From Marinobacter sp. S6332 (lineage in GTDB: Bacteria > Pseudomonadota > Gammaproteobacteria > Pseudomonadales > Oleiphilaceae), in NCBI RefSeq assembly GCF_023016045.1, contig NZ_JALKAP010000001.1:186001-250000 (forward strand): a stretch of DNA of 64,000 nucleotides, written 5' to 3'. Within the stretch, counting starts at the first letter, position 1; the number at the start of each line of letters is the position of its first letter. Below the pieces are notes generated by a model. That model saw nothing but the letters and a program-made list of their open reading frames with translations. It did no database searches and was not told the origin of the DNA. The translations under genes and the position numbers were made by a program. Below are positions 4,847 through 62,113 of this stretch, in pieces.

Positions 4847-5158
4847 TTACCAGAACACTCCCTCTTTGGTGCGCGCCTGTCATCAAGTTTGCAGTTTAGT
4901 TCAGGGTTGGGTTGGTTCAACTAAACCGGGGTGATCTGGCACATCCTTGCCTTTAATTCCAAAGCTGCTATGGTGCCGTCAACCTCAATGAAGGAGCTTT
5001 CTATGGTTTCTTTAATCCCACTTTCGATTACCTTCCATTAGTCGGCGAGCCCCGCCACTCGGTGCTCGCGAGCTTTCCTATGTTTTTGTAGAACACAATC
5101 GACAACACGTTTGTGGCACCCGTAACAACAGAATTTTTTAGCAGGCAGAGATACTGAC
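4847..5158. other. 312-base intergenic stretch
   Basis: No convincing gene was found. It separates the diverging TDT transporter and GreA/GreB-like genes and presumably holds both promoters. A 17-codon reading frame (MKELSMVSLIPLSITFH, from about 4988) follows an AAGGAG-like string but has no recognisable product. Confidence 0.4.
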
Positions 5159-29200: not shown

Positions 29201-29353
29201 TGACACTGGAATCCTGCCGTTAGGAACTACACCAAAGAGTATAGAACACCAACGCCTCCGCGTGTATAAACCAAAGACACTTGAAAGTAATAAATAGTTC
29301 GATAAGCAGGGTCGGGGGGGCGACCCTGCCATTTCAAGATCGGGAGTCCGGCA

Positions 29354-39717: not shown

Positions 39718-39759
39718 TAATTGCTATACTGCGCCCAAAATTGCCACAAACTGACGCTA

Positions 39760-40746
39760 ATGACTACTCATAAAGCCGATCACAGGATTCCCGTTAAGGA
39801 GCTTGGCCCCGCCGCCCCTGCGGAGCCTGTGGTTGCTAAAGGGCTTGGTGCTGACAGTGCCGCGCTCCAGAAAATTCTCGATAGTCTTGATGCTCTGGTA
39901 TACGTGGCAGACTTCGAAACCCACGAGTTGCTGTATATGAATGGTTATGGCAAAAACATGCTGGATGAAGTCGAGAAAGGGAAGAAGTGCTGGCAAGTGC
40001 TGCAAAACGCCGATGGCCCCTGCAGTTTCTGCACAAACCACTTGTTAGTTGATAGCTCGGGTAACGCCACCGGTGTCCATGTATGGGAATTTCAAAACAG
40101 GGTAAACAAACACTGGTACCAGTGCCGGGACCTGGCCATCAGATGGACAGACGGGCGCCTGGTTCGCCTGGAAATTGCCACCGACATTACTGACCGCAAA
40201 AACATGGAAATAGCCCTGCAGAATGCGCAACAGAGGGCAGAAGCCACTTCCCTGCAGGATGAACTGACACAGCTGAACAACCGCCGAGCATTTTTTCAGC
40301 TTGGGGGTCAGTTCTTAAAGCAAGCAAAACGGCGCAACACACCTATCGCAGCGATCATGTTTGATTTGGATCACTTCAAACTAATCAACGATACTTATGG
40401 CCACGAAGCCGGGGATGCGGTTCTCAGGGAAGTGGGAAGTTTGCTGCTAGCCGAAGTGCGAGAGTCGGATATCGCCGCGCGCATTGGGGGCGAAGAATTT
40501 GCCGTCTTACTGCCAGAGTCTTCTCAGGAGCACGCAATGGAACTTGCTGAGCGGCTGCGCAACGCACTTGATAGCCTAAAGGTAAGATACAAGCAGACGG
40601 AGCTTAGACCAACCGCAAGCTTCGGTGTTGCCATGTTGACGCCGGACGATGACCGGCTTGAGTCGTTGCTATCGCGCGCCGATGAAGCCATGTATCTATC
40701 CAAGTCCGATGGTCGAAACCGCGTACACCTTTTCCCGCAATTCTAA
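39760..40746 (+). CDS. PAS-GGDEF diguanylate cyclase
   Basis: The protein has 328 residues from the ATG at 39760; a TTG at 39721 is less likely. An N-terminal PAS domain (ALVYVADFETHELLYMNGYG) contains the Cys cluster GKKCWQVLQ ... GPCSFC. The GGDEF domain is intact: DELTQLNNRRAF, DLDHFKLINDTYGHEAGD and ARIGGEEFAVL, with RESD as the inhibitory RxxD site. It is soluble, so it should sense a cytoplasmic signal. Probably feeds the c-di-GMP pool read by PelD. Confidence 0.9.
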   Translation: MTTHKADHRIPVKELGPAAPAEPVVAKGLGADSAALQKILDSLDALVYVADFETHELLYMNGYGKNMLDEVEKGKKCWQVLQNADGPCSFCTNHLLVDSSGNATGVHVWEFQNRVNKHWYQCRDLAIRWTDGRLVRLEIATDITDRKNMEIALQNAQQRAEATSLQDELTQLNNRRAFFQLGGQFLKQAKRRNTPIAAIMFDLDHFKLINDTYGHEAGDAVLREVGSLLLAEVRESDIAARIGGEEFAVLLPESSQEHAMELAERLRNALDSLKVRYKQTELRPTASFGVAMLTPDDDRLESLLSRADEAMYLSKSDGRNRVHLFPQF

Positions 40747-43979: not shown

Positions 43980-45022
43980 TCGGTTCCAGACGCCGAAGCC
44001 GCAGTAATATCAATGTATGGCCAGGGTACGTAGACGCACTCTCGGCCCTATTAATGCTGGTGATATTCATGCTGCTGGTTTACGTGGTGAGCCAGCTTTA
44101 CCTTTCCCAAACGCTATCGGACCGCAATTCCGAGTTGGCCCGCCTGAACCAGCGCTTGAGTGAAATATCACAACTTCTAGGGCTGGAGCAAAGCAAAACC
44201 GAAGCGCTGGAGCAGCAAATGCTCACGGTTCAAAGCAACTTCAGCGACAGCCAAGCTGAAAACGAAGACCTACAAAACCGGCTGGATGCCGCCCGCAATC
44301 AGCTTATGCAGCAAACCGCCGATGCCGAAGCCCGCGCAGAAAGGCTGGCAAATATGAATCAAGAACTGGACGACAAGGAAGAGCTTTCCATTAGCCAGCA
44401 GAACATGATTTTGCGGCTATCCAACCAAATAGCATCACTCCAAAATCAACTGCGCCAGATAACCGCTGCCCTTAAACTGCAGCAGGAAATGACTGCAGAT
44501 AAAGAAGGTGAGCTAGAAAAAGTCAGTCAACGCTTGAACACCTTACTGGCGGAACGCGTCAACCAACTGGAGCAGTACCAATCTGAATTCTTCTCGCGGC
44601 TAAGGAATATTCTGGCCGCCAATGAAAACATTCGGGTGGTCGGCGACCGCTTTCTGCTGCCTTCGGAACTGCTGTTTGCATCCGGCTCCGCACGGCTAGG
44701 GGCAGAAGGTAAGCGCGAACTTGATAAACTCGCCGGCGTTCTGCTTGAAGTGGTCAAAACTATACCGGCGGATCTCGATTGGATTCTGCGTATTGATGGC
44801 CACACCGACCTAATACCCATCAACACGCCGCAGTTTCCCTCCAACTGGGAACTTTCAACCGCCCGAGCGGTGGCCGTTGTTCGCTACTTGGCGGATCAGG
44901 ACGTGCCACAAAACCGAATGGTTGCGGCAGGATTTGGCGAATTCTTCCCGGTTGCGAAGGGCACCACACCAGAGGCTTTGCAAAAAAATCGACGCATCGA
45001 AATCAAGTTGACGGATCGCTAA
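43976..45022 (+). CDS. MotB/OmpA-like peptidoglycan-binding protein with long coiled coil
   Basis: The protein has 348 residues. One N-terminal helix (PGYVDALSALLMLVIFMLLV) carries D20 at the place of the proton-binding Asp of MotB. Residues about 50-205 form a coiled coil (LARLNQRLSEISQLLGLEQS and onward). The C-terminus is an OmpA-type wall-binding domain with IDGHTDLIPI and NRRIEIKL. Together with the upstream channel protein it resembles a stator, but the coiled coil is much longer than in flagellar MotB. It ends 4 bases into the convergent panE gene. Confidence 0.82.
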   Translation: MIGSRRRSRSNINVWPGYVDALSALLMLVIFMLLVYVVSQLYLSQTLSDRNSELARLNQRLSEISQLLGLEQSKTEALEQQMLTVQSNFSDSQAENEDLQNRLDAARNQLMQQTADAEARAERLANMNQELDDKEELSISQQNMILRLSNQIASLQNQLRQITAALKLQQEMTADKEGELEKVSQRLNTLLAERVNQLEQYQSEFFSRLRNILAANENIRVVGDRFLLPSELLFASGSARLGAEGKRELDKLAGVLLEVVKTIPADLDWILRIDGHTDLIPINTPQFPSNWELSTARAVAVVRYLADQDVPQNRMVAAGFGEFFPVAKGTTPEALQKNRRIEIKLTDR

Positions 45023-45963
45023 CCCAGGCCATGCTCCAGAAGCGCATTCACGGTAGTGGTATAGGGGGCGCCAATTCCGAGTTCATTGGAGCGGCGAAGC
45101 ACTGCCCCGGCGATGCCATCCAGCTCAAGAGGGCGGCCCTTTTCCTTATCGACCAGCATAGATGTTTTGATTGCGTTGAAGCTGCTGATCAGTGCGAACA
45201 TCTCGTCAACATCGGCTTTGCCAAGCTCCACGCCGTCGGCCTTTGCGGCTGCGGCGGCTTCCGCCATCATGCCCTGCACGATTTGGCTGAACCGGGGGTG
45301 TCGGGTCAGGCTTTGCGTATCCAGCCCGGTGAGGGCAGAGATCGGATTGACCCCATTGTTGATCACCAGCTTACGCCACAATTCAGAGCGAATATTATCC
45401 GACACCATTGACGGAATGCCGGCCTTCTCAAACGCGGTCTGCAGAATTTCCAGAAGCGGGCGACGGGCGTCCTGCTCATCCGGAACCACCGGCCACTCGC
45501 CCATAATAATCTGCGCGACGCCTTCCGCTTCAACAACGCCGGGCCCAACGATATGGCCACCGATGCGCACAGCCAGGCCACCAAGAACCCGGCTCTCGCC
45601 AAGCCTTTTGGCAATCAAAGGTTCGTTATCCACCCCGTTTTGCAACGACAGAACAGGCACATCACTTTGTGCCAGCCAGAGGCCCAGCTCATCCAGCACG
45701 GCCTTTGTGGCGGTGGACTTTAACGCAATGACAACAACATCAAAGTCCCCGGGCTGGTAATCCTGCATCAACGTAGCATGATCAACTGCGGGAACCCGAC
45801 ACTCTATCTGACGATTCTCATAATGAACCAGTAGGCCCTTTTTCTTCAGGGCCGCAAGGTGTGCTCCACGGGCCGTAAGAACAACCCGGTGGCCGGCCTC
45901 AGATAACCGCGCTGCGTAGTATCCACCAACACCACCTGCGCCGACCATCAGGATGCTGAGCAT
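45019..45963 (-). CDS. panE: 2-dehydropantoate 2-reductase
   Basis: The start is the ATG at 45963, nine bases after GAGGT; 314 residues. The N-terminal Rossmann site is MVGAGGVGGYYAARLSEAG; LSLQNGVDN and LWRKLVINNGVNPISAL hold the catalytic Lys region of ketopantoate reductases. It reduces 2-dehydropantoate to pantoate with NADPH for pantothenate and CoA synthesis. Paralogues of this family sometimes act on other 2-oxo acids. Confidence 0.85.
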   Translation of the reverse strand: MLSILMVGAGGVGGYYAARLSEAGHRVVLTARGAHLAALKKKGLLVHYENRQIECRVPAVDHATLMQDYQPGDFDVVVIALKSTATKAVLDELGLWLAQSDVPVLSLQNGVDNEPLIAKRLGESRVLGGLAVRIGGHIVGPGVVEAEGVAQIIMGEWPVVPDEQDARRPLLEILQTAFEKAGIPSMVSDNIRSELWRKLVINNGVNPISALTGLDTQSLTRHPRFSQIVQGMMAEAAAAAKADGVELGKADVDEMFALISSFNAIKTSMLVDKEKGRPLELDGIAGAVLRRSNELGIGAPYTTTVNALLEHGLG

Positions 45964-46039
45964 AAGCAATAGACCTCTTTGTCCTGTTTCTTCAATCTCC
46001 CAGTTTTAACACGAAGATAGAAGCAAGCACACAAGACAC

Positions 46040-46342
46040 TTAAACAAACTTACCGCCCAAGGTGCCCAGGCCCTGATAACGCACGGTGAAAGCATCACCT
46101 TTCTCAACCTGAACCGCCGCCGTGATAGCACCGATCATGATAAAACTGCCAGCCGGCAAGCTCTCTCCACGCTCCCCCATCATGTTGGCTAGCATGGCTA
46201 CCGAAGCAGCCGGGTGCCCCAATACCGCAGCTCCCGCACCGGTCTGAATCACTTCTCCGTTGGTTTCCATCACCACGCCGATGGTCTTCAGGTCTCCATC
46301 TGCAACATCGGCCATGCGCCCGCCGGTTACGAAACGGCTGGT
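46040..46342 (-). pseudogene. C-terminal remnant of 4-oxalocrotonate decarboxylase (dmpH/xylI-like)
   Basis: About 100 residues remain of a protein normally about 260 long. [40 protein letters not shown] and [18 protein letters not shown] align by eye with the end of XylI/DmpH, which decarboxylates 2-oxo-3-hexenedioate in the meta-cleavage pathway. The frame meets a stop codon at 46345-46343 just upstream, where the sequence switches to the aldolase fragment in a different frame. The natural stop at 46040 is kept. This is a deletion remnant, not a working gene. Confidence 0.85.
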
Positions 46343-46511
46343 TCAGGTGATCAACCGTACCAATCCCCGGTAGAAGCAGTGCAGAGATCCTGACGTTATT
46401 CATTTTCGGCACCACCGCGCGGAGATACTCCTCATCGCTGTGGGCCGGAAAGCCATAGTTCAGTGAGCGTCCACCCAAGCCATCACCGTGGGTGACTTCG
46501 ATCAGGAAACT
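46341..46511 (-). pseudogene. internal remnant of 4-hydroxy-2-oxovalerate aldolase (dmpG/xylK-like)
   Basis: About 57 residues: [39 protein letters not shown] and [16 protein letters not shown]. These match the region near residues 45-105 of the DmpG/XylK/BphI aldolase, including the conserved HGDGL and LLLPGIGT. The start and the remaining two thirds are missing. Gene order (aldolase then decarboxylase) is that of the dmp and related operons, so one deletion from mid-dmpG to mid-dmpH explains the junction at about 46341. Confidence 0.82.
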
Positions 46512-46973
46512 GGCGACTTCTATGTGGAAATGGAGTGGATTGATTCTTTTGAAGTGGAGATTTGCCAGACTAAACTGGGGCAAATGGATGAGCCAGCGTG
46601 CTGGGCGCTGCTGGGCTATGCATGCGCCTATACATCCTCGTTCATGGGGCGTGAAATCATTTTCCGTGAAACCGGTGCTGGTAAAGAAGTGATCGCACGC
46701 AGTGTACACTTGCGCAGTGAAAGGGCTGACAGGCCGTTTGTTGCCGTCAATTGTGCCGCCATACCACCGGACCTTATTGAATCCGAACTTTTTGGCGTTG
46801 AAAAAGGCGCCTTTACCGGTGCTAACCAATCCCGCCCGGGCCGATTTGAACGAGCTGATAAAGGCACGATTTTTCTGGATGAAGTGGTCGAACTGACACC
46901 CCGAGCGCAGGCTTCGCCTCAATCCTCGGAGTTTATCGATGACGCGGGTCAGGTAGTCTCCGGCGATTCGTAA
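46488..46973 (+). pseudogene. internally deleted XylR/DmpR-type sigma-54 activator
   Basis: From about 46518 the frame reads [38 protein letters not shown] and MGREIIF, the end of a V4R sensor domain. At about 46665-46680 it jumps to AAA+ sequence: [14 protein letters not shown] (Walker A, with the usual leading Gly replaced by Arg), [20 protein letters not shown] (GAFTGA follows) and GTIFLDEV (Walker B-like). It leaves the family after LTPRAQA at about 46913 and stops at 46973. The sensor N-terminus, inter-domain linker, rest of the ATPase and the DNA-binding domain are gone. The first codons are antisense to the aldolase remnant. Confidence 0.85.
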
Positions 46974-47178
46974 CAAGGTGGGCCCGCACTGGCTTCTCGG
47001 CTCAAAAAAGCCGGCATACTGCAGAAAATTTGAAAGCACCAATGACTCAGGTGAGTTGGCTTACACAATTAACATGTCTGTTCCTTAGCCAAGGCTCGGA
47101 AATCGGGTAGGCAGGTTCCTGGTTTCAGTTTGCGTTACAATGTAGAACTCCAACACATTTTTTGCAGCATCTGCCCAC

Positions 47179-49956
47179 ATGATCCGACACCTCCTGCTCA
47201 GTATACTGCTCCTTTTGTCCGCCTCTGTGCTGGCTGCAGGCACACAACAATCAGCATCTCCCCGCAACGTCGGCTTCTATTACGGCAACGAAGCACCGAT
47301 AGGCAGCCTATACGCTTACGACTGGCTAGTGCTGCAGGCTGACCAAACCTCGAATGCCCGCCTCGACCTATTGAGCCAAGGCGAAACCCGCCCAATCTTA
47401 TACCTGAGCGCAGGAGAAATGGCCCGGTCACACCAAGCAGCCAAAAGCCTACAAAGCGACTGGGTGCTGGGGGAGAACAAAGCTTGGAAGAGCGAGGTTT
47501 TGGACATACGCCGGGCCGATGTTCGGAGTTTCATGATGGAGCAGTTAATCGCTCCGGAAATGGCCCGTGGGTTTCAAGGCGTTTTTCTGGATACGCTAGA
47601 CAGCCATCTTCTTACCTCTGAGGGCAAAGAAAACCAGCAAGCTTTCGCCCAGTCTCAGGGGCTGCTGATCGCGGATATTCGTAACCGTTTCCCACAAAGC
47701 CGCATCATCATAAACCGTGGTTTCCACTTGCCCGAACATGTCCATAAGCTAGTAGATGCATTAGCGTTCGAATCCTGGCGCCACGGCTATGAAGCTGGCG
47801 GCCGTCGCTACCACAGTGTTCCTGAGAATAGCCGTGAATGGCTCTCCGGCCAGCTTGCCCACTGGCGCGAGGTGCATCCGAATACCCCGGTCATTGCCAT
47901 CGACTACGCGAAAAACATGGAAGACACCCAAGAGCAGTCTCAAGTGCTCGCGCAGGAGGGTTTCATTCCCTATATTTCCGATCACAACCTGAACCGACTT
48001 GGCCCCACGCAACCGCCAGTACATAAGCGGCATGTTTTGGTGTTCCATGATCTACCGGAGCATCAGGTTGATCAAAGTGCCGCCCACCGGCGCCTCGGCA
48101 TTTTGCTAGAACGCCTTGGGCTTGTACCTGTTTACCGTTCAACCCTGCAGCCTTTTTTGCAAGAGCCGCTGGATGACCGCTACGCAGGCATAGTGGTCTG
48201 GTGGGAAGCCAACGCTAAAAAAACCGGTTTCTGCCGCTGGCTCAGCGGATGGCAATCGCCAGAAATGCCGGTGGTTACTTTCGGGCTTACGCCAACAAAC
48301 ACCCAATGTCGAAATCTGATGCAAAGCCAGCGCGTGGCTTTGCCAAACGGAGATCTCGAAACCTCACCCATACATTCTTCTATGGGCAATTATGAAAGTA
48401 CACGCTTACCTAAAGCGGTTACAGGACCATTGCCGCAGGCATCCCCTGCTGACCACTGGCTCAGCGCAACAGATATAACCGGCACCCGTTTCAGCCCGGT
48501 TTATACCCACTCTGAAGGCGGCGTGGCCGTTTTACCATTCATTTTTGAGAGAGGCCCGGAGGATGAGGCATTCTGGCTTTTCGACCCTTTCGAATTTCTG
48601 AAACAGGCTCTTAAACTGCCAGCACTTCCGGCAATCGACAGCACCACCGAAAGTGGCAGACGTATACTGACTGCGCATATTGACGGCGACGGTCTAGTAT
48701 CCCGGGCGGAACTGCCCGGTAGCCCATTGGGCTCGGACGCCATTGCGCAGCGCATTCTTAAGGTCTTCGATATTCCCCATACAGCTTCAGTGATTGAAGC
48801 GGAAACTTCGCCGGAAGGCCTCTATCCAGGCGTCAGCCAAGAGGCAGAAGCAAGTGCCCGTGCTATTTTCCGGATGGACAATGTGGAAGTTGCTTCACAT
48901 TCATACAGCCATCCTTTCTTCTGGCGTATGATTGAGGGCGGAGCGGGGAGCGCCCCGAACCCGGAGGACACCCTTTACGGATACTCGATGAATATACCCG
49001 GGTACACCCCGTCTCTGGTTCGGGAAATTCGCGACTCGGTCAGTTACATCAACGAACGTTTGGCACCCAATGATAAACCCGTGTCTATGTTTCTCTGGAC
49101 CGGAGATGCCCGCCCAGGGCCCGAGGCGCTGAGAATTACCCGGGAAATGGGATTACTCAATGTGAACGGGGGCGACACCCACCCACTGCCTTACGATTCT
49201 GAATTGGCTGGTGTTTGGCCCGATGCGCGCCCTGTGGGTGACGAGTTACAGGTCTATGCCGCCGTAATGAATGAGAATGTGTACACAGATCTATGGACCG
49301 GCCCGTTTTACGGTTTCCGCAACGTTATTGAGACCTTCCGGATTTTGGAAGCCAACAACCGCCTGAAACCCATCAGCATCTATTACCACTTTTATTCCGG
49401 CACCAAACCCGAAGCACTCAGGGCTCTGGAAGAGGTCTACACCTATGCACTTTCCCAGCCGGTAACCCCTATGTATTTGAGTGACTACGCCAAGCGTGTA
49501 CAGGGACAATACTATTCGGTTCTCCTGAAGCCTGATGAACACAGTTTTCGTTGGCGCGGTATACGCCCACCTTCAACGGTACGCATTAGTCAGGACCAGT
49601 ACCCCGACATGTCACTCAGCCGTGGCGTCGCAGGCTTTCATGACACAGGTAAGCTGCGCTTCGTACACCTCTTGGGAAATGACCCATTGTTAGTTCTTTC
49701 CCCAGACCCTGTAGTTGGGCCTGTACTGGATTCCGCAAACGCACAAATCGTACAATGGCAACGCGAGCAGCGAGACAGGCGCTGGTATATAACACTGCAA
49801 TTTGAAGGCTATCAACCACTGGACTTTACCCTTTCAGGTACATCTCAATGTTCTGTAAAAGAACAGCAGCTGTCGATTAGCAAAGACTCCAACAGGCGTC
49901 TTCACTTCCGTGCTGCAGAGCAAAACCGTGGCCGGTTTGAGATGGAGTGCCACTGA
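47179..49956 (+). CDS. pelA: Pel polysaccharide hydrolase/deacetylase PelA
   Basis: The protein has 925 residues (P. aeruginosa PelA is about 948). Signal peptide 1-20. The N-terminal glycoside hydrolase-like domain has GVFLDTLD (D138) and LAFESW (E198), positions matching the catalytic acids of PelA. A flavodoxin-like middle is followed by the deacetylase: LTAHIDGDG (D502, D504) and SHSYSHPF (H574, H578) give the Asp-His-His metal site. It deacetylates Pel in the periplasm, needed for export and cationic charge. First gene of pelABCDEFG; no strong ribosome site precedes the ATG. Confidence 0.93.
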   Translation: MIRHLLLSILLLLSASVLAAGTQQSASPRNVGFYYGNEAPIGSLYAYDWLVLQADQTSNARLDLLSQGETRPILYLSAGEMARSHQAAKSLQSDWVLGENKAWKSEVLDIRRADVRSFMMEQLIAPEMARGFQGVFLDTLDSHLLTSEGKENQQAFAQSQGLLIADIRNRFPQSRIIINRGFHLPEHVHKLVDALAFESWRHGYEAGGRRYHSVPENSREWLSGQLAHWREVHPNTPVIAIDYAKNMEDTQEQSQVLAQEGFIPYISDHNLNRLGPTQPPVHKRHVLVFHDLPEHQVDQSAAHRRLGILLERLGLVPVYRSTLQPFLQEPLDDRYAGIVVWWEANAKKTGFCRWLSGWQSPEMPVVTFGLTPTNTQCRNLMQSQRVALPNGDLETSPIHSSMGNYESTRLPKAVTGPLPQASPADHWLSATDITGTRFSPVYTHSEGGVAVLPFIFERGPEDEAFWLFDPFEFLKQALKLPALPAIDSTTESGRRILTAHIDGDGLVSRAELPGSPLGSDAIAQRILKVFDIPHTASVIEAETSPEGLYPGVSQEAEASARAIFRMDNVEVASHSYSHPFFWRMIEGGAGSAPNPEDTLYGYSMNIPGYTPSLVREIRDSVSYINERLAPNDKPVSMFLWTGDARPGPEALRITREMGLLNVNGGDTHPLPYDSELAGVWPDARPVGDELQVYAAVMNENVYTDLWTGPFYGFRNVIETFRILEANNRLKPISIYYHFYSGTKPEALRALEEVYTYALSQPVTPMYLSDYAKRVQGQYYSVLLKPDEHSFRWRGIRPPSTVRISQDQYPDMSLSRGVAGFHDTGKLRFVHLLGNDPLLVLSPDPVVGPVLDSANAQIVQWQREQRDRRWYITLQFEGYQPLDFTLSGTSQCSVKEQQLSISKDSNRRLHFRAAEQNRGRFEMECH

Positions 49957-49959
49957 TTC

Positions 49960-52900
49960 ATGCGCCACCGCAAGCCTGCCTTTTTTAGCCTCCCAGCCTT
50001 GCTGGCTTTGGCTGGCCTGCTTTTGGTGACCTTGTACTTGCTGTTTCCACGGCAGGCAGCCTTTGAGGATCCCCGTTATCTTGAGGCTCCGGATAGCATT
50101 TCTCTGGCCTATCTTGAAACGCTATTGAAATCCGATTCAGGCAACCAAAAACTGCGCCTCAACTTGAGCAGAATGCAGCAAAAAGCCGGTCAACCTAACA
50201 AAGCCATGAACACACTGGCGCCCTTGCTCGATAACGCCCAAGTCCCGCTCCAAGCCATGTCCATCCAAACGGAGCTTCTCCGGAGTGAGTTTTTCCGGGC
50301 CGAGACCGATGCGGACCGATCGCAGCTTCGGGGCCAGCTTGCGTCTACGCTTGAGCAGGCTTTTGACCAGGGCTACTCGACTGTTGATAAACGGGCGCTT
50401 GCCACCAACGTTCTACCGCTGCTTACCGCTAGCGAACAGTTGGCTGCGTACCAGCAACTTTTTAAGCAGACTACCGGCATTGCAAGGTTCCGGCTGGGGC
50501 AGGATATTGCGAACCTTCAGGAAGCCACCGGCAACCCGAACAGCGCGAAAGACACCCTTGGCACCATCTTTCCGCTGGTTCCAACCGACGAAGAAAACGC
50601 ATTTATTCGCAACCTGATTCGGCTAGAGCTGGCCACAGGAAACGCAGGCAATGCACTGAAACTATTTCAAGAAACTCACGAGGGCACCAGTCTGAACCCG
50701 CAACAGTTGCGCGAAGGCATACGCCTTGCCGATCTTGCAGGTGAGCCGGAAGCAAGTGGAAGCTGGCTTGCTTTGCTGGCGCAGAAAGAGCCCGACGACA
50801 TAGATGTACAACGCCGATTCCTCATGTTGCAGCTAGGACGCGGCGACCTCCGCGAGGCCCTGACTACTATCAAACGCATGGAAAACAGTGGCCGTGCATT
50901 GGCCAGCTCCGATAGGGAACGCATTGCCAAGGTATATGAATGGAACAGCATGCCCTCGGAAGCTCTGAGCTATTGGCGCGACCTGTTTCTTAGCCAGACT
51001 CCGGAAGACACTTCTTCAATTGCCTATGATCGCGCCACCAGCTTGGCTAGCGGCCTGTTCCGGTGGCCCACACTTGTCGAACTGTTAAAGGTTCGCGCCG
51101 CCCGTAAGCAACTGAGCCCGGAAGGCTATAACCAGCTTACCGACGCTCTCATTAGTACCGGTGACATGAGCAATGCCGATCAATATCTAACACAAGGAAT
51201 AGCCCGCTTCCCCGAAAACGCTGCCTTGCGGCAGCGCCGATTTGTATTACTTGTGAACAGTCGCCGCTTTAAAGACGCGATCAGTATGCTGCAAGCTGCT
51301 CCCTCACTGACAGACGAAGAAAAAGTACGGCTCGCCAACTTACATTGGCGTACGCGGGATCCGGAGTCAGCACTGACTGCATTGGAATTTATACCAGAAA
51401 GCCCCGAGCTGGCTCAGGAAGCAGAGGCCATGCGTTGGGACCTCGCCATCATGCTAAACCGCAAAGATCTACTCAAACAATTCTATGAACGCAGTGCTAA
51501 ACAGCCAGTTGATGGGATACCCGAAGAACTCAGAGATCGCATAATCACACTCTCTTGGCAATTTGGCTCCCCCGACGAATCCCTTGCTTTGAGCCGCCAG
51601 CAATATCGCGAGACCGGAGAGTTGCGCTACCTCATCACCATGGCAGAGCTGCAGAATTCTCTGAACCAGTGGGATGAGCTGGCCGAATCGCTCGCGCAAT
51701 GGGATAGCACATTTTCTCAAGCCTCGAATGACCCTCGATTTTGGGTACTGACAGCAAGGTTGCACCAAGCCCACAACAAGCCCGAGGCCGCCCAAAAAGC
51801 GTTTTTAGCAGCCGCCACGCTGGCACCGGATAACAGCAGCCTGCTGATTAACTGGGGTTGGTTTTTACTGAGCCGACCCAGCCTGCTGCCTGGCCAACTA
51901 CCGCAGATTCTAGCCACACTGGCCGACTACCACTCCGCAGACACCTATCCGCTGCAGATATATGGACACCTTGCATTGAATGAACCGGAATTGGCCGAGG
52001 TTTGGCTAGCAGAAGCTCGCAAGGAGCTCAGCGGCGACCCCTCGCAATTGCTTTCGCTGTCTGACTATGCCCGCAATAATGGCGCGCGGTCTGAAGCCGA
52101 GGCACTGCGGCAATACGCAGTCCTCATCACCGGGAAGCTGGAGAAGCCAGATCCAGAGGTCCTTACCCAGCTACACAGTGTTCTGAGGGATCCCATTCAG
52201 GAACCCGTAGGGCCCGTTTACCGATTTGATAACCGAGCACTACAAGCAAGCGCACAGATACTCGATCTTGGCGGTTTCTCAGTACACACAGCCGGGGTGA
52301 CCGGACAATTCAGCCACGACCGCTACCGCTGGCTCTTTTCCGCAGAGCATAGCAGCGCTCAAAACCAAGGCTTACTGCTAGCACGCCCTGAACCGACAGA
52401 AAGTGGTCGCCTGCAGTGGCAGACCAACAATCAGAACCTTCTATTGAGCACCGAACTTAGCACTTACCGCCTTGCCAGTGGCGACAAGCTGTCGGCCGCT
52501 TTTGAGCTTACAACCCAGCCCTCGGACCGTTTTACTCTGGGCGCCGGTCTGGCGTTCAACGAACGTGTAACCAACAGTGCCGAAGCCTGGTGGTTAACAT
52601 CGGCCAACCGGGCCTCAGTTTCTGGCAGTTACGCTCCTTGGCCAAGGCTGGAGCTTACCGGTGAAATTGACTATATCACTGTAGATGAAGCCTTCGGCGG
52701 CGAGATTGGCACTGGCTACAACACCGACCTGCTTGCTACTTACAGCCTGCTCCGAAACGACCCGGCTTGGCGGATTTCACTCGGGTATCAAAGCCGCCAG
52801 CTGAATTTGAGCAACAGCCTAAGCGCCGGCACCCTTGCCAAACTGAGCGTACCTCTAGCACCCGACGAGCTATTAACCGATGACTATCGGCGCATCGGGC

Positions 52901-53154
52901 TCACATCCCAGTGGTCCCATGGGGAGCCTCAGGCCCTGAACCGAACCGCTCCATCGCCACGATTGTTTTTCGCACTGGACAGCGGTTATGTATTATCCAC
53001 CTCAAGCTTCGACTTTGGCGCCCGCATGGGCCTCGGCTGGCGTATTGCGGGTGATGATGAGCTGGCGTTTTCTGCTGGCTATAGCACCGACAGTCTGGAC
53101 GGTCAGTCCCGTGCAGATGCCAAATTAACGTATACCCTTTATTTGGGCCATTAA
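49960..53154 (+). CDS. pelB: Pel export outer-membrane TPR/porin PelB
   Basis: The protein has 1064 residues (P. aeruginosa about 1190). One N-terminal helix (FSLPALLALAGLLLVTLYLL) anchors a long run of TPR helices (about 60-740) in the periplasm. The last 300 residues are alternating beta strands ending LTYTLYLGH, an outer-membrane barrel. TPRs bind PelA; the barrel is the Pel exit. It starts 3 bases after pelA ends. Confidence 0.92.
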   Translation: MRHRKPAFFSLPALLALAGLLLVTLYLLFPRQAAFEDPRYLEAPDSISLAYLETLLKSDSGNQKLRLNLSRMQQKAGQPNKAMNTLAPLLDNAQVPLQAMSIQTELLRSEFFRAETDADRSQLRGQLASTLEQAFDQGYSTVDKRALATNVLPLLTASEQLAAYQQLFKQTTGIARFRLGQDIANLQEATGNPNSAKDTLGTIFPLVPTDEENAFIRNLIRLELATGNAGNALKLFQETHEGTSLNPQQLREGIRLADLAGEPEASGSWLALLAQKEPDDIDVQRRFLMLQLGRGDLREALTTIKRMENSGRALASSDRERIAKVYEWNSMPSEALSYWRDLFLSQTPEDTSSIAYDRATSLASGLFRWPTLVELLKVRAARKQLSPEGYNQLTDALISTGDMSNADQYLTQGIARFPENAALRQRRFVLLVNSRRFKDAISMLQAAPSLTDEEKVRLANLHWRTRDPESALTALEFIPESPELAQEAEAMRWDLAIMLNRKDLLKQFYERSAKQPVDGIPEELRDRIITLSWQFGSPDESLALSRQQYRETGELRYLITMAELQNSLNQWDELAESLAQWDSTFSQASNDPRFWVLTARLHQAHNKPEAAQKAFLAAATLAPDNSSLLINWGWFLLSRPSLLPGQLPQILATLADYHSADTYPLQIYGHLALNEPELAEVWLAEARKELSGDPSQLLSLSDYARNNGARSEAEALRQYAVLITGKLEKPDPEVLTQLHSVLRDPIQEPVGPVYRFDNRALQASAQILDLGGFSVHTAGVTGQFSHDRYRWLFSAEHSSAQNQGLLLARPEPTESGRLQWQTNNQNLLLSTELSTYRLASGDKLSAAFELTTQPSDRFTLGAGLAFNERVTNSAEAWWLTSANRASVSGSYAPWPRLELTGEIDYITVDEAFGGEIGTGYNTDLLATYSLLRNDPAWRISLGYQSRQLNLSNSLSAGTLAKLSVPLAPDELLTDDYRRIGLTSQWSHGEPQALNRTAPSPRLFFALDSGYVLSTSSFDFGARMGLGWRIAGDDELAFSAGYSTDSLDGQSRADAKLTYTLYLGH

Positions 53155-53168
53155 CAGGAGTTTTCATC

Positions 53169-53699
53169 ATGCTCATCCGATCCATGACACTGGTGCTGAC
53201 ACTGGCCTTTCTGGCCGGTTGCTCCGTCATGCAAAGCCAGCAAGCATCTGAGCCTGTCGACTTGAACAGCCGATTTGCGGTTATCCCGCTGGGCAATCTG
53301 TCGCAAACACCGCAGGCTGGCGACCAAGCCGCTAGCATCCTCAGTGCACTACTACGGGCGAAAGGTGCGACCGAGGTGGAGCTTTACCTGCCAGCAGACG
53401 ATAACCCGCTAATCTACGACAACCGAGCCAGACAGCAGGACGCGATCGCTGCCGCGCAGTCAGACGGCGCGGATATTATCGTTTCGGGCACTGTTGACGA
53501 ATGGCGTTACAAATCCGGGTTAGACGGTGAACCGGCTGTCGGAATCACTCTGGAGTTCCGCGACGCCGATGACAACTCGGTGCTTTGGTCTGCCACAGGC
53601 GCCCGTACAGGTTGGGGCCGTGAAGGCGTTACCGTTGCCGGGCACAAGGTCTTGGATGATCTGCTGGACGCACTGCCTGTAACCAATTCCGCGCGCTAA
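53169..53699 (+). CDS. pelC: Pel outer-membrane lipoprotein PelC
   Basis: The protein has 176 residues with lipobox LAFLAGC. PelC forms a dodecameric ring under the PelB barrel that guides the polymer. The mature domain reads FAVIPLGNLSQTPQAGDQAA, IVSGTVDEWRYKSGLDGEPA and SVLWSATGARTGWGREGVT, matching the expected fold. AGGAG lies before the ATG. Length equals the known PelC. Confidence 0.9.
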   Translation: MLIRSMTLVLTLAFLAGCSVMQSQQASEPVDLNSRFAVIPLGNLSQTPQAGDQAASILSALLRAKGATEVELYLPADDNPLIYDNRARQQDAIAAAQSDGADIIVSGTVDEWRYKSGLDGEPAVGITLEFRDADDNSVLWSATGARTGWGREGVTVAGHKVLDDLLDALPVTNSAR

Positions 53700-53705
53700 G
53701 GCATT

Positions 53706-55040
53706 ATGAAAACACCCGACGTATCCAGTGATCCGGCTCTAGCCAGTAAGCAGTCACCCATTTGGCTGAAGTGGTTTGAAACCATCGCCATCACGGTGCT
53801 GTTCATCGCTTTGGGTTTCTGGAACCGACCGGACGATCCTCTGTTTGTCAGTGACGTATTTCCATGGCCAGCACTGGTCACCCTGCTTGCAGGTTTGAGA
53901 TACGGCTTTTTCATGGCGCTTGTCTCATCCACAGTCATTCTCGCAACCGCGGGCCTGCTTCTGCGGGCAGAGCTGTTGCCCGGGAATCAGTTGCCTTACG
54001 TATGGGGTTTGGGCGTGATGGCGATCGGCCTACTTGCAGGGGAGTTTCGTGACTACTGGGACCGGCGCATCGAAAAGCTGGTAGCTGCCAACCAATATCG
54101 GCATACACGGTTAGAAGAATTCACACGCAATTTCTATCTACTGAAAGTTTCCCACGATCGTCTGGAGCAACAACTGGCTGGCAGTTCCAGCAGTCTACGC
54201 GAAGCCCTAAGGCGCCTGTACAGCGAAATATCCCATGCCCAAGGTAGCGGGCTCAATCGGGAAACCAGCGACCTGATCATGCGCCTTATGGTTCGTTACG
54301 GCCAATTACAGATCGCTGCTATTTACGCGATTGAGGAGGGTCAACTGTCGGAAACGCCGCTGACCAGCATAGGCAACTTCCAACCCATAGAAACAGATGA
54401 TCCCCTGCTAACTCATGCCCTGCAAGAGCAAACACTGGTTTCGGTGCACACGGAATATCGCGACAACCGGGACGAACTGAAAACCAAACTTTTGCTGGCT
54501 CTGCCTCTCATTGATTCCACCGGAATCATCATCGGCATGATTGCCGTAGAAGCCATGCCTTTTTTCAGCTTTCAGCCAAAAACCCTGCGCTTATTGGCTA
54601 TTTTGGCGGGGCACATGGCAGATATGATTCAGGAACAAACGAAAGTACAGCAACAATCCGCGCCGGAATGGCGTCAGTTCAAATTCCAACTTGCCCGGGT
54701 CTTGTCTGATGCTCAGGACCACGAACTACCCGGCTCCCTTGTACACCTGTCGTTTAGGGACACGACTGATGCAGCTCGGGTAATCGAGCGAATGCAACAG
54801 ATGCGCCGCGGGCTTGATGTCATAGCCTGCCCACCTGAGGCTTCGGAGAAACAAGTGGCCATATTGATGCCACTTACGGACGAACTGGGCTGCGCGGCTT
54901 ATCTGCAAAGGCTGGCAGACGATATCCGCCAACAAACTGGGCAGTCGCTGGAAGCTTTGGCACGCATCCGGCAACAGCAAATCAGCGGCACAACAGACAT
55001 CGCCCAGTGGCTTGAGAGAATCCGGAAGGAACCTACATGA
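53706..55040 (+). CDS. pelD: c-di-GMP receptor PelD
   Basis: The protein has 444 residues. Four N-terminal membrane helices (about 24-115) are followed by a coiled coil, a GAF domain (about 175-305) and a degenerate GGDEF domain. The c-di-GMP inhibitory-site motif is kept: R368-G-L-D371 in MRRGLDVI; R165 in SSLREALR fits the second binding Arg described in P. aeruginosa PelD. The GGDEF active-site signature itself is absent, so it binds but does not make c-di-GMP. It activates Pel synthesis. Confidence 0.92.
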   Translation: MKTPDVSSDPALASKQSPIWLKWFETIAITVLFIALGFWNRPDDPLFVSDVFPWPALVTLLAGLRYGFFMALVSSTVILATAGLLLRAELLPGNQLPYVWGLGVMAIGLLAGEFRDYWDRRIEKLVAANQYRHTRLEEFTRNFYLLKVSHDRLEQQLAGSSSSLREALRRLYSEISHAQGSGLNRETSDLIMRLMVRYGQLQIAAIYAIEEGQLSETPLTSIGNFQPIETDDPLLTHALQEQTLVSVHTEYRDNRDELKTKLLLALPLIDSTGIIIGMIAVEAMPFFSFQPKTLRLLAILAGHMADMIQEQTKVQQQSAPEWRQFKFQLARVLSDAQDHELPGSLVHLSFRDTTDAARVIERMQQMRRGLDVIACPPEASEKQVAILMPLTDELGCAAYLQRLADDIRQQTGQSLEALARIRQQQISGTTDIAQWLERIRKEPT

Positions 55041-56020
55041 ACGCCTGGCTAATCTCACTGGGCCTGGCACTGGAAGCAGGTAGCATCGCATCACTTTTCG
55101 CGGACCTGCCGCCTGTTATTGGCTTTCTAACCTTTCTTGCAATACATGCATTGGCCTGCTTGGTGTTTACATTTGTGAGCCTGCCGTTATTACCTGCCAG
55201 CTACCGCCGCAAAGGCTTTCAGGCAGGCCTGCTTTTGTTTACGCTGCAGTTTGCTATCCCGGTGATCGGGAGCATTGGAGTATTTGCCGGTATGCTGCTA
55301 CCACTGCACTTGCCGCGATCGGAGCACAACATCCCTTGGCAAGAAACGGCCATACCCGATCTGCCTTTCAGCCCGGTGGACATGAGCCAGCAAATGACCT
55401 TCAGCGAAGGCGGCTTGCGCGAGGTGCTTAGAGAAGCCCAAGCTCCAGAACGGCGCCTGAAAGCCCTGCTGGCCTCCCGCCAGCTTACCGACCGTGAAGC
55501 CATCAACATTCTTCAAGAAGCGCTCAAAGACCCATCCGACGACGTGCGTTTACTAGCCTACTCCATGCTAGAACAACAGGAGAAGCGCTTGGCATCCCGT
55601 GCCCAAAACCTGCAAAAGCTTCTAGAGCAACGGCAACATCCTGATCGAAACCGGCTAAAGCGTCGGCTGGCCCACACTTGGTGGGAAATGGCCTATCTCG
55701 GTCTCGCACAAGGCGGTCTGCGGCAATACTATCTGGAAAACGCCAGAACGATTTTGGCGGAGCTGACAGACGCAACCTCACAGCACAATGACTGGCGGCT
55801 TTTGGGCCGGGTAGAACTAGCATTAAACCACACCACAGCCGCGAGCCGTGCTTTCGAAGCGGCCCTTGCCAACGGTGCCCCGCCAGAGCTGATTTTCCCC
55901 TATCAGGCAGAGATTGCTTTTCTCGCACGAGACTATCGCAAAGTACGCTTCCATCTCGCCAACTGTTCACGGTTTCGGCCCGCGCCTGTGGTCAAAAACC
56001 TGATGGAGGGCTGGCTATGA
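55037..56020 (+). CDS. pelE: Pel inner-membrane TPR protein PelE
   Basis: The protein has 327 residues with three hydrophobic N-terminal segments (about 1-95) and a helical TPR-like cytoplasmic part (LTDREAINILQEALKDPSDD, then KRRLAHTWWEMAYLGLAQGG). It overlaps pelD and pelF by 4 bases each. PelE forms the inner-membrane complex with PelD, PelF and PelG. Confidence 0.88.
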   Translation: MNAWLISLGLALEAGSIASLFADLPPVIGFLTFLAIHALACLVFTFVSLPLLPASYRRKGFQAGLLLFTLQFAIPVIGSIGVFAGMLLPLHLPRSEHNIPWQETAIPDLPFSPVDMSQQMTFSEGGLREVLREAQAPERRLKALLASRQLTDREAINILQEALKDPSDDVRLLAYSMLEQQEKRLASRAQNLQKLLEQRQHPDRNRLKRRLAHTWWEMAYLGLAQGGLRQYYLENARTILAELTDATSQHNDWRLLGRVELALNHTTAASRAFEAALANGAPPELIFPYQAEIAFLARDYRKVRFHLANCSRFRPAPVVKNLMEGWL

Positions 56021-57555
56021 TCCGCCGCACGCCCAAGCAAGAAGCTCCCACAGCCGATATCACCCTGCTGCTGGAAGGCACCTACCCGTTTATACGCGGA
56101 GGCGTTTCATCTTGGGTGCACCAAATTATTACTGGTCTGCCCCAGTTCCGTTTTTCGCTGATCTTTCTAGGTGGCGATCGCGGCCACTATGGCAAGCAGC
56201 AATACACCTTACCGGACAATGTTGTGCACCTTGAATGCCATTACCTGATGGACAATCTTGACGACACCAAGCCAAAGCCTAGCAAAGGTAGTCATCGAGC
56301 CTTCGAGACCCAACGCACTCTGCATGACCGGTTCCGCAGCAATAAACCCGTGCCCGAAGGCGTGCTCAGCCAAGCATTACGAGATCTCGGGCGCAAAGGC
56401 GGCATCAGCAAAGAAGACTTTCTGTACAGCGAAGAAAGTTGGCAGATGATTGACGAAAGTTACCGAAAATACTGCACCGAGCCTTCCTTTGTGGACTACT
56501 TCTGGACCATACGGATCATGCACGCGCCCCTGTTCATGCTTGCAGACATCGCGCAAAACATTCCGAAAACCCGGGCGGTACACTCCATCTCCACAGGCTA
56601 CGCCGGGCTTTTGGGCGCCATGCTAAGGGATTCGCGCGATGTGCCTTTTATCCTCACGGAACACGGCATATACACGAAAGAGCGTAAGATCGATCTTTCT
56701 CAGGCCGAATGGATACGTGAAGCCAGCGACCAGGTAAGCGCCAACCTCAACGACCAACTCGGCTATATTCGGCAGTTATGGATTCGATTTTTTGAGACCA
56801 TGGGCAGGCTTACCTACCAGCAGGCAGACCCCATCATTTCCCTCTACCTAGGGAATCAGCAACGACAACTGGCGGACGGCGCCGCCCCGGAACGAACCCA
56901 CATTATCCCGAACGGCATCAGCCCCGAGCAGTTCGAAGGCGCACTCGCCGCAAGGCCTGCGACAGTGCCCATGGTAATGGGTCTTGTGGGCAGGGTAGTG
57001 CCGATTAAAGACATAAAAACCTTCATAAGAGCCATGCGCTCGGTGTACGAGGTGGTTCCGAATGTCGAAGGCTGGATTGTCGGCCCGGAAGACGAAGACC
57101 CGGCCTACGTAACCGAGTGCAAAGAACTCGTCAGCAGCCTAGGCTTGCAGGATTGTGTGAAGTTTTTGGGTTTCTGCAACGTGAAAGAGATACTGCCGCA
57201 ACTTGGGTTGATGGTGCTAACCTCAATTTCTGAAGCCTTACCGCTGGTTATTCTGGAAGCCCATGCCGCTGGGCTGCCTTGTTTGGCCACAGACGTTGGC
57301 GCCTGCCGCGAGCTTATTGAGGGCGGCACTGAGGAAGATAAAAGTCTAGGTCGCAGTGGCGCAGTGGTTCCTATTGCAGACCCGGAAGCGACCGCAAGAG
57401 AAGCTATCCGCCTGTTGCTGGACGAGAAACGCTGGCAGCAAGCGAGTGAGGCAGGGCTGGCCCGAGTGAAACGCTACTACACTCTGGACGCCATGTTTGA
57501 TTCCTATCGCAACATTTACGACACGGCCATAGCCGCCGGGAGCCAGAAAGACTAA
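56017..57555 (+). CDS. pelF: Pel glycosyltransferase PelF
   Basis: The protein has 512 residues, close to the known 507, and is a GT4-type retaining glycosyltransferase. The opening ITLLLEGTYPFIRGGVSSWV is the PelF hallmark. The donor-binding motifs are HIIPNGI, MVMGLVGRVVPIKDIKTF and the E-x7-E pair in SEALPLVILEA. It uses UDP-GlcNAc/GalNAc to build Pel in the cytoplasm. It overlaps pelE by 4 bases and pelG by 1 base. Confidence 0.93.
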   Translation: MIRRTPKQEAPTADITLLLEGTYPFIRGGVSSWVHQIITGLPQFRFSLIFLGGDRGHYGKQQYTLPDNVVHLECHYLMDNLDDTKPKPSKGSHRAFETQRTLHDRFRSNKPVPEGVLSQALRDLGRKGGISKEDFLYSEESWQMIDESYRKYCTEPSFVDYFWTIRIMHAPLFMLADIAQNIPKTRAVHSISTGYAGLLGAMLRDSRDVPFILTEHGIYTKERKIDLSQAEWIREASDQVSANLNDQLGYIRQLWIRFFETMGRLTYQQADPIISLYLGNQQRQLADGAAPERTHIIPNGISPEQFEGALAARPATVPMVMGLVGRVVPIKDIKTFIRAMRSVYEVVPNVEGWIVGPEDEDPAYVTECKELVSSLGLQDCVKFLGFCNVKEILPQLGLMVLTSISEALPLVILEAHAAGLPCLATDVGACRELIEGGTEEDKSLGRSGAVVPIADPEATAREAIRLLLDEKRWQQASEAGLARVKRYYTLDAMFDSYRNIYDTAIAAGSQKD

Positions 57556-58931
57556 TGGCAGGCATCGGATTTGAACTCAGGCGCATCCTCAAGCGCGACA
57601 ACCTGAGCAGCCTGATCGGCGCCTACGGCCTCGCCAGCATCATCAGCTCCGGTCCCTGGGTGCTGTCGGTACTCGGGGTCATGCTGATTGGTATTATCAG
57701 TATCAGCCTGTCGGTTCCCGAACGGGAGATCATTCAGTTTCTGGTTTCCGTAACCTATCTGATGGCGATTTCCCTAACGTTGTCGGGGCTGTTTCAACAC
57801 GTGTTTACGCGCTGGGTTGCAGACCGGCTCTATGAAAAACGTAAGCTGCTGATTCTGCCCAACCTGATGGGCGTGCTCTGGTTTTCCACCCTACTGGCGC
57901 TGGCCTGCGGCCTACCGGCAGCGCTTTTTCTGCTGCCCGGCACCTCTGTTGTCTACAAGCTTCTGATGCTGGCCAATTTTGTAGTGCTGTGTAATCTCTG
58001 GCCAGTAACCATCTTTCTTTCAGGCATGAAGTCCTACACCTTGATTGTGGCGCTGTTTGCGGTGAGCTACTTCACCGCCATTGTCGCATCTATACTGTTA
58101 GCCAAGTATGGGTTGGAAGGGCTTTTGGGCGGCCTGCTGATAGGCCATGGCTTGCTGTTATTCAGCTTTCTATTCACCATCATCCGACAGTACCCAAGTG
58201 ACGCCCCCATGGGCTTCGACTTTACCCGCCGGGCACAGATTTTCCCCGCTCTGATCGCCACTGGCCTCTTGTTCAACGCCGCCGTTTGGGCCGATAAGTT
58301 TATCTTTTGGTTTCACCCGGACACCTCCCAGCACGTAATCGGAACACTCAGGGCATCGGTGATCTACGATCTGCCGATCTTCCTCGCCTATCTGGCCATC
58401 ATCCCCGGCATGGCTGTGTTTCTAGTACGCATGGAAACAGACTTTTCTGAAGCCTACGACCGCTTCTACAGCGCTGTACGCCAAGGCGACACTCTGGCTC
58501 GGATAAACAGTTTTCGGGATGAAATGGTACGTGTTGCACGCAACGGCATTTACGAGATCTGCAAGGTTCAGAGCTTTACCGTCATTATTCTGTTCCTGTG
58601 GGCAGATGAACTGCTATCCGCCATTGGGATATCCACGCTCTACTTGCCCCTGTTCTATATCGACTTGGTGTCTGTAAGCATGCAGCTCATTCTGCTCGCC
58701 ATTCAGAACGTCTTGTTTTATCTGGACGCCAGAAACATCAACGTGTCTTTATGTGTGATCTTTTTTGTCAGTAATATCGTGCTTACGCTTCTCACCATTG
58801 AACTGGGCGCCAGCTTTTACGGCTACGGATACGCAGGCGCTACGCTCTTATCCTCGGTAATCGGGCTGGCCATGCTGTCGCGGAAGTTCGACCGACTTGA
58901 GTACGAAACCTTCATGCTTCAGGGGCGATAG
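57555..58931 (+). CDS. pelG: Pel inner-membrane flippase-like protein PelG
   Basis: The protein has 458 residues with about 12 membrane helices, a member of the polysaccharide-transporter superfamily (Wzx-like). The start MAGIGFELRRILKRDNLSSL is strongly conserved in PelG. It is thought to form the path for Pel across the inner membrane. Last gene of the operon; no clear terminator follows before the convergent lipoprotein gene at 58946. Confidence 0.93.
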   Translation: MAGIGFELRRILKRDNLSSLIGAYGLASIISSGPWVLSVLGVMLIGIISISLSVPEREIIQFLVSVTYLMAISLTLSGLFQHVFTRWVADRLYEKRKLLILPNLMGVLWFSTLLALACGLPAALFLLPGTSVVYKLLMLANFVVLCNLWPVTIFLSGMKSYTLIVALFAVSYFTAIVASILLAKYGLEGLLGGLLIGHGLLLFSFLFTIIRQYPSDAPMGFDFTRRAQIFPALIATGLLFNAAVWADKFIFWFHPDTSQHVIGTLRASVIYDLPIFLAYLAIIPGMAVFLVRMETDFSEAYDRFYSAVRQGDTLARINSFRDEMVRVARNGIYEICKVQSFTVIILFLWADELLSAIGISTLYLPLFYIDLVSVSMQLILLAIQNVLFYLDARNINVSLCVIFFVSNIVLTLLTIELGASFYGYGYAGATLLSSVIGLAMLSRKFDRLEYETFMLQGR

Positions 58932-58945
58932 GGGGTAAAATCTGC

Positions 58946-59284
58946 TTACTCTATTTGAGCAAACTTAACCCATGTTCCCCTGCTGTTTTTCCAAGAAGTA
59001 CCAGAATTTTTGTCGATACGAATAGCTCTCCAGCTTTCACCAGTGGAGACTATTTTGACATCGTAGAGTGATTCAGGAATTGGGCTTGGGTCTTTTATCT
59101 TCCTCCACTCTGTATTCGATGCCCACCAAGTTTCGCCAGTACGTATATTGAACTTTACGTGTCGCGTTTTTCCTTCTTGGGAGAGAGAAACTATCTCCAG
59201 AGCGTAAGTTCCATGCTCGGTGCCCAATGAACTACATCCCGAAATCCCAAACAAAATCGCAACAATAAGAGCTCCGTATCGCAT
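58946..59284 (-). CDS. small lipoprotein with two Trp-containing repeats
   Basis: The protein has 112 residues. Lipobox GISGC (C17) follows a short signal peptide. Two imperfect repeats fill the mature part: RTGETWWASNTEWRKI and KNSGTSWKNSRGTWVKF, a pattern (TGxxW ... W.K) seen in many small secreted proteins with no settled role. AGAAGGAT precedes the ATG. Its start lies inside the end of the upstream ABM-like gene (94 bases overlap). Codon use is more AT-rich than in pel, which fits cassette origin. Confidence 0.7.
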   Translation of the reverse strand: MRYGALIVAILFGISGCSSLGTEHGTYALEIVSLSQEGKTRHVKFNIRTGETWWASNTEWRKIKDPSPIPESLYDVKIVSTGESWRAIRIDKNSGTSWKNSRGTWVKFAQIE

Positions 59285-59984: not shown

Positions 59985-60266
59985 CTATCGTTCACCTTCA
60001 AGGCCATGCCATACCCGCAGAATAATGATGGTGCTGGCATGAAGTGAGTATCGAACGACGTATTTTCCAAAAACCATATCTCGAACAGAGTCTGGCACCG
60101 GTGCTATTTCAACGGGTGTGCCCATTTTGGGGAAGTCTGGAAGCAGTCCGATTTTGCCAACCAGTTCGGCGGCAACCTTAGCTGCCGCCGATGGATTGTG
60201 GGCTTCAATCAACTCCCTCAAACGTTTCAAATCTTCAATGGCATCATCCGTGTAAACCAGTTTCAC
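59985..60266 (-). CDS. ParE/RelE-family toxin
   Basis: The protein has 93 residues. LVYTDDAIEDLKRLRELIEA, KIGLLPDFPKMGTPV and FGKYVVRYSLHASTIIILRV are typical of the ParE/RelE fold, ending in the VWHGLEGER tail. It blocks gyrase or translation depending on subtype; which one is not clear. Its ATG overlaps the antitoxin stop. It ends two bases before the attC-like site, as expected for a cassette. Confidence 0.85.
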   Translation of the reverse strand: MKLVYTDDAIEDLKRLRELIEAHNPSAAAKVAAELVGKIGLLPDFPKMGTPVEIAPVPDSVRDMVFGKYVVRYSLHASTIIILRVWHGLEGER

Positions 60267-60535
60267 TTACCTGACCTCGGTGCGTCCTGCTCGTTCTCGG
60301 CTCCCCAACTATTAAGCCAGCTATGAACCTCGCTGGCATCAACCACCTTGCCACGGGCAGCAGACTCCATTGCCTCTAACGTTTGTTTCCATCGCTCTTG
60401 CTCAAGCTGCTGCTTTTCTATGTATTCTGACAAAGCCTGGTTGATTACCCAGCCTTTGCTCCGGTGCAGCCTGCCGGCGATTGCTTCCAGGTGCTGTTCA
60501 ACTTCTGCTTGGAGGCGAACTGTGGTGACACTCAT
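60263..60535 (-). CDS. ribbon-helix-helix antitoxin (ParD/CopG-like)
   Basis: The protein has 90 residues. TTVRLQAEVEQHLEAIAGRL then SKGWVINQALSEYIEKQQ is a ribbon-helix-helix DNA-binding domain; the rest is a charged helix that should wrap the toxin. GAGGG lies seven bases before the ATG. It should neutralise the toxin and repress its own promoter. Toxin-antitoxin pairs are common stabilisers of cassette arrays. Confidence 0.85.
   Translation of the reverse strand: MSVTTVRLQAEVEQHLEAIAGRLHRSKGWVINQALSEYIEKQQLEQERWKQTLEAMESAARGKVVDASEVHSWLNSWGAENEQDAPRSGK

Positions 60536-60940: not shown

Positions 60941-62113
<1,173 letters not shown>

Follow-up and report, generated by a model that had tools for sequence, protein, structure and literature searches.

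Background

In the Pel exopolysaccharide system of Pseudomonas aeruginosa, whose product is a partly deacetylated GalNAc polymer of biofilms, PelF polymerises the sugar and PelD, PelE and PelG make up the synthase and transport complex of the inner membrane. Trimming and deacetylation of the polymer fall to PelA, and its export to PelB and PelC. Here we describe a Pel locus of Marinobacter sp. S6332 at positions 47179–58931 of a stretch of 64,000 nucleotides (G000:C1:186001-250000, where G000 is the 4.14 Mb genome of this strain; the whole stretch is referred to below as the window). It resembles the P. aeruginosa locus in having seven genes in the same order, the arginine/aspartate/arginine triad of PelD for binding cyclic di-GMP (c-di-GMP), a PelA with hydrolase and deacetylase domains, and homologues of PelB and PelC. 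It differs in lying behind a remnant of the regulatory gene dmpR, in having a leader that does not match the FleQ consensus, and in its diverged sequence. We follow the operon name pelABCDEFG, as given in the abstract of PMC10269871.

The second system of relevance is the dmp (phenol) meta-cleavage cluster with its regulator DmpR, a XylR-family sigma-54 activator, which is intact beside pel in two related genomes, G085 and G053, and of which only about 1 kilobase (kb) of fragments remains in the window.

A complete pel operon with conserved catalytic and binding residues

Seven same-strand open reading frames (ORFs), encoding proteins of 925, 1064, 176, 444, 327, 512 and 458 amino acids (aa), are tiled end to end across 47179–58931, with junctions that are either 1- or 4-base overlaps or gaps of 3 to 14 bases:

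47179–49956, + strand: pelA, 925 aa, GH114 hydrolase plus deacetylase domain (Pfam GH114)
49960–53154, + strand: pelB, 1064 aa, TPR scaffold and outer-membrane barrel (Pfam PelB_C PF24604, 169 bits)
53169–53699, + strand: pelC, 176 aa, lipoprotein (6.6e-35 to solved PelC 9h80_C)
53706–55040, + strand: pelD, 444 aa, GAF and degenerate GGDEF domains, c-di-GMP receptor by homology (Pfam PelD_GGDEF)
55037–56020, + strand: pelE, 327 aa, assigned by position and a single 30% match
56017–57555, + strand: pelF, 512 aa, GT4 glycosyltransferase (NCBIfam NF038011 PelF, 765 bits, cut-off 100)
57555–58931, + strand: pelG, 458 aa, inner-membrane transporter (Pfam PelG PF16933, 502 bits)

Comparison with solved structures extends these assignments to PelA (9cgy, E = 6.9e-162, residues 28–894), PelB (9h80_M, 3.4e-26, the best stretch being residues 12–640) and PelD (5.6e-37), while the Pfam scan gave no match for PelC. 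The match of PelE, at 30% identity over 100% of its length, is to a place on a plasmid that overlaps a gene annotated as PelD. All of pelA to pelG are present, on one strand and in order, with PelE placed by position and this match, and the preliminary description of the locus as a complete pelABCDEFG operon of overlapping or nearly abutting genes is borne out by the Pel-family and structural matches.

Substitutions R367A, D370A and R402A in P. aeruginosa PelD abolish both c-di-GMP binding and pellicle formation, according to PMC2170427. The corresponding residues of the window protein are R368, D371 and R402, with the sequence R368-G-L-D371 present and R402 aligned to the arginine of YLQR in solved PelD. 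The R368xxD371 site noted earlier is therefore confirmed by alignment to the solved protein, and R402 is kept as well; with the triad intact, binding of c-di-GMP is predicted. In PelA the deacetylase residues are H526, D528, D530, H600 and H604 in P. aeruginosa numbering (PMC12022489). That PelA keeps its deacetylase residues had also been noted earlier, and all five align at a constant offset of 26 with H500, D502, D504, H574 and H578 of the window protein. The FLDTLD motif (136–141) and the glutamate E198 of AFES are likewise identical to solved PelA in the alignment, and these positions may hold the equivalents of the hydrolase residues D160 and E218 (P. aeruginosa numbering).

If the locus works as its homologues do, PelF would polymerise the sugar, and PelD, switched at R368/D371/R402 by c-di-GMP that a cyclase would supply, would act with PelE and PelG in the inner-membrane complex, after which PelA would trim and deacetylate the polymer and PelB and PelC would export it. 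On the strength of its predicted proteins, 47179–58931 is very probably a standard Pel exopolysaccharide operon, and one that is probably functional. It is a further example of a well-known system; among the titles listed by our literature search none names a Marinobacter Pel operon, from which we claim no absence from print.

Pel in the genus Marinobacter

Across 124 Marinobacter genomes, a pelA match is present in 23, including that of the window. The closest relatives by PelA identity (92%) are G085 and G053, which match Marinobacter sp. 1-4A and Marinobacter salexigens D2M19. Loci were mapped for ten of the 22 other pel-positive genomes, and nine of these carry the full set of seven pel genes in unchanged order, at 41–99% identity; for the tenth, G113, pelA to pelF are listed and the DNA match spans the pelG region. 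A PelA tree of 21 of the 23 loci (G060 and G111, with partial pelA, were omitted from the tree but counted in the promoter survey below) places G114 as sister to the clade of the window, G085 and G053 (support 85/84), with G079, G032 and G031 next.

A probably deleted dmp cluster beside an unbroken pel leader

In G085 and G053 an intact dmp cluster lies between panE and pelA, with a mutual identity of 97.4% over 17.9 kb. Ten genes of the G085 cluster were scanned and comprise a phenol hydroxylase, a reductase-type partner, an extradiol (catechol-2,3-dioxygenase-type) gene, an aldehyde dehydrogenase, an acetaldehyde dehydrogenase, a DmpG-like aldolase, two FAA-family enzymes, a chemoreceptor and, in divergent orientation, dmpR, which encodes a 594-aa XylR_N/sigma-54 activator. 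The window retains the following pieces:

46039–46341, − strand: remnant (3' part) of an FAA-hydrolase-family gene, 94.4% identical to G085 3546–3848
46342–46505, − strand: remnant of the dmpG-like aldolase gene, 92.7% identical to G085 5086–5249, within the PF07836 DmpG_comm gene
46494–46676, 46666–46917 and 46907–46992, + strand: three collinear, deletion-joined dmpR fragments, from inside the gene of the G085 594-aa activator
46981–47033, + strand: final 53 base pairs (bp) of dmpR, running straight into the pel leader, by alignment to G085 and G053
47034–47178, + strand: pelA leader, 145 bp, starting one base past the former dmpR stop and reaching the pelA ATG

These pieces are collinear with the intact cluster of the relatives, and a search with G085 dmpR gave no match at E ≤ 1e-100 in the window genome (10 of 24 first-look candidates scored). 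The window probably lost a full dmp cluster rather than never having had one. Of its six junctions, four (J3–J6) fall at short stretches common to both sides, of 4–11 bases depending on the junction and the relative, while J2 has no shared repeat and the breakpoint of J1 is imprecise. The last junction, at 46981–46992, lies within the 3' end of dmpR. The cluster would thus have been removed by several deletions, mostly at short repeats, that stopped in dmpR and spared the pel leader.

Within the dmpR fragments, the lengths deleted at J4 (276 bp) and J5 (432 bp) are divisible by three and that at J6 (133 bp) is not; two in-frame deletions of the J4 and J5 type have a chance of 1 in 9. The fragments are spanned by a 161-aa ORF (46488–46973) that holds part of a sigma-54 domain. 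The 252-bp fragment at 46666–46917, from the sigma-54 domain, is 98.8% identical to both relatives, compared to 90–98% for the other dmp fragments and 91.6–92.4% for the pel block.

The preliminary description had the lost aromatic locus ending about 200 bases before pelA and suggested that the pel promoter may therefore sit on rearranged DNA. The remnant is real, but its last recognisable base is 47033, which puts the distance at 145 bp, and the suggestion of a rearranged promoter finds no support in the relatives with intact dmp, which carry a collinear leader in the same place. In G085 the interval from the end of dmpR (equivalent to window position 47033) to the pelA ATG is likewise 145 bp, and the window leader is identical to it, ungapped, at 124 of 145 positions and to that of G053 at 123 of 145. 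A single alignment, 12.4 kb long, runs without interruption from 46981 through the whole operon, with identities of 91.6% to G085 and 92.4% to G053, and the deletions therefore stopped inside dmpR: the loss of dmp left the pel leader unmoved and unbroken. Deletions reaching into the leader were accordingly rejected. It is thus very unlikely that dmp loss moved the pel promoter onto rearranged DNA in the window strain alone, even though the remnant abuts the leader and the order beyond about 200 bp upstream of pelA does differ from that in the dmp-intact relatives: the 145-bp leader and last 53 bp of dmpR are continuous as in two species with intact dmp, and loss is possible solely for elements lying further upstream.

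As an observation that would refute its reading, the preliminary description had named an identical pel upstream region in strains that never had the dmp remnant. In this literal form it was not found, as the leaders of five genomes with pel and no adjoining dmp (G114, G060, G079, G032 and G031) align poorly, with 47–61 identical of 128–138 aligned bases. Six pel-less genomes with dmpR were also compared. Similarity upstream of pelA ends at 47020–47034 in G121, G052, G009 and G034, while G024 and G108 have no match to the window upstream of pelA. Since similarity to the pel-less flanks stops at about the dmpR stop codon, the leader seems, from these alignments, to move with pel instead of with dmp. 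In the window, pel lies behind the end of dmpR and ahead of an alcohol dehydrogenase gene (60941–62053); in G009 the corresponding alcohol dehydrogenase gene directly follows dmpR.

Promoter signals ahead of pelA

In 11 of the 23 pel loci a box, CTATA(A/C)(T/C), occurs 67–92 bp before pelA (survey range −130 to −50). First-order Markov resampling gave a mean of 0.31 and a maximum of 4 such loci in 2000 rounds, and the reverse strand gave 0 of 23, although these statistics are flattering because the motif was picked after the sequences had been seen. Each of the five loci in the two nearest lineages has the box, and none of the three loci of the window clade does; in that clade the sequence immediately upstream of pel is dmpR, in the same orientation, or the scar that it left. 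As the tree nests the clade next to box-bearing lineages, loss on the branch leading to it is the simplest reading, and the pel promoter may have changed in the window clade before dmp was lost. Nine further loci are also without the box; among the near misses, G101 has CTATA at −177, and in G111 a CTATA at −92 fails the full pattern.

Several points weigh against a standard, functional operon in the window. Its leader lacks this −10-like box seen in other pel loci, and the operon could therefore be poorly transcribed. A sigma-70-type scan found no promoter-like site in 46900–47260. The leader holds no match to the FleQ consensus, of which the window as a whole has 28 matches against 41 expected. 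Finally, PelE has no family-level match of its own, as neither Pfam nor the solved structures gave anything specific to it.

Other signals were sought with negative results. The leader has no well-spaced sigma-54 site, the sole GG/GC-spaced match ahead of pelA in G000 being at −200, within the dmpR remnant. Its predicted fold is not unusually stable (z of +0.6 for the 145 nt of G085 and +0.9 for 144 nt of the window). Between the dmpR and pelA genes of G085 the forward strand has no terminator-like site and the minus strand has one, a rate equal to that of shuffled sequence.

One explanation that draws on these observations is that the ancestor of the clade had pel directly behind dmpR and lost the old promoter, so that transcription of pel then depended on dmpR read-through or on a weak promoter newly acquired, and that the window has since lost most of dmpR along with its promoter. 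The distribution of the box among the loci, the lack of a forward terminator-like site between dmpR and pelA in G085, and the way in which the dmpR flanks of pel-less genomes cease to resemble the window near the dmpR stop are all consistent with this. However, the motif was chosen post hoc, the nine boxless loci outside the clade show the same absence, and TACAAT at −43 offers an alternative; we regard the explanation as unlikely. The stronger version, in which the Pel of one clade lost the promoter box of its sister lineages and came under dmpR read-through, and the window then lost dmp and the dmpR promoter, leaving Pel either re-regulated or silent, appears distinctly unlikely. A standard Pel operon with an unbroken leader remains the reading that we prefer.

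Cyclases and phosphodiesterase in the window

Three enzymes of c-di-GMP turnover are encoded upstream of pel:

39721–40746, + strand: diguanylate cyclase, GGEEF, RESD I-site
26936–29332, − strand: diguanylate cyclase with a weak 7TM-type N-terminal match, GGEEF, RGSD I-site
9950–11557, + strand: phosphodiesterase with CSS and EAL domains

In both cyclases the RxxD lies nine residues ahead of GGEEF, and the earlier account of two GGEEF proteins with RxxD sites and one CSS-EAL enzyme near pel agrees with the domains and motifs found. Its placement of one cyclase start at 29200 is also probably right: matches to the 798-aa query in G085 and G053 carry in-frame stops, and the open G085 gene encodes 756 aa, so that the true start of the 26936–29332 cyclase is probably near 29200.

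The same account implied that these enzymes form a functional cluster with pel, a proposal that these data do not support. With 54 GGDEF and 21 EAL domain matches in 4.14 Mb, a 64-kb stretch is expected to hold 0.83 and 0.32 respectively (Poisson probability of at least two GGDEF 0.20, of at least one EAL 0.28), and 648 of 2140 sliding 64-kb windows of contig C1 have at least two GGDEF plus at least one EAL. Over the 92 kb that take in 40 kb on either side of pel the counts are mildly high, at four GGDEF (1.2 expected, Poisson 0.033) and two EAL (0.47 expected, Poisson 0.080), but C1 is rich in such domains, with at least four GGDEF in 536 of 2029 windows of this size and additionally at least two EAL in 131 of 2029. 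Across the genus, no association with pel was found for either cyclase. The 39721–40746 cyclase occurs in 10 of 23 pel-positive and 35 of 101 pel-negative genomes (p = 0.48; 45 of 49 matches counted, those of G026, G100, G023 and G014 being dropped at 43–49% identity with little beyond GGDEF), and the 26936–29332 cyclase in 17 of 23 and 61 of 101 (p = 0.34).

That the two cyclases and the CSS-EAL enzyme are a dedicated local module controlling Pel is, on these counts, highly improbable. All three do lie at most 40 kb upstream of pel, and the 39721–40746 cyclase is found no further than about 25 kb ahead of pel in G085, G053, G114, G060, G032 and G031. However, it also lies some 20–25 kb from dmpR in the pel-less genomes G121, G052, G009, G024 and G108, and therefore marks a shared neighbourhood and not pel. 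With density near expectation and no genus-wide association, proximity to pel is weak evidence of a cyclase link at best, and a c-di-GMP module around pel was rejected on the density and association tests.

Neighbouring genes and the variable slot

Adjoining pelG is a 112-aa ORF without a Pfam match (58946–59284, − strand), found in the window, G085 and G053 at 95–96% identity; among the matches listed for the eight other relatives mapped, none lies next to pelG. Further on, overlapping small ORFs at 59985–60535 (− strand), with a ribbon-helix-helix domain in 60263–60535, are perhaps a toxin-antitoxin pair.

The slot at 45022–47179, after an ExbB/OmpA gene pair, differs by species. It holds dmp and pel in G085 and G053 and pel without dmp in G114 and G060, while the window has the dmp scar and pel. 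G121, G052 and G009 have dmp without pel.

Pel is patchily distributed within the genus (23 of 124 genomes), and the window contributes a further Pel locus of Marinobacter type. A natural series is made up by species that have both dmp and pel, dmp only, pel only or a dmp scar beside pel, in which it can be asked whether the control of a matrix operon changes when it lands behind a catabolic regulator.

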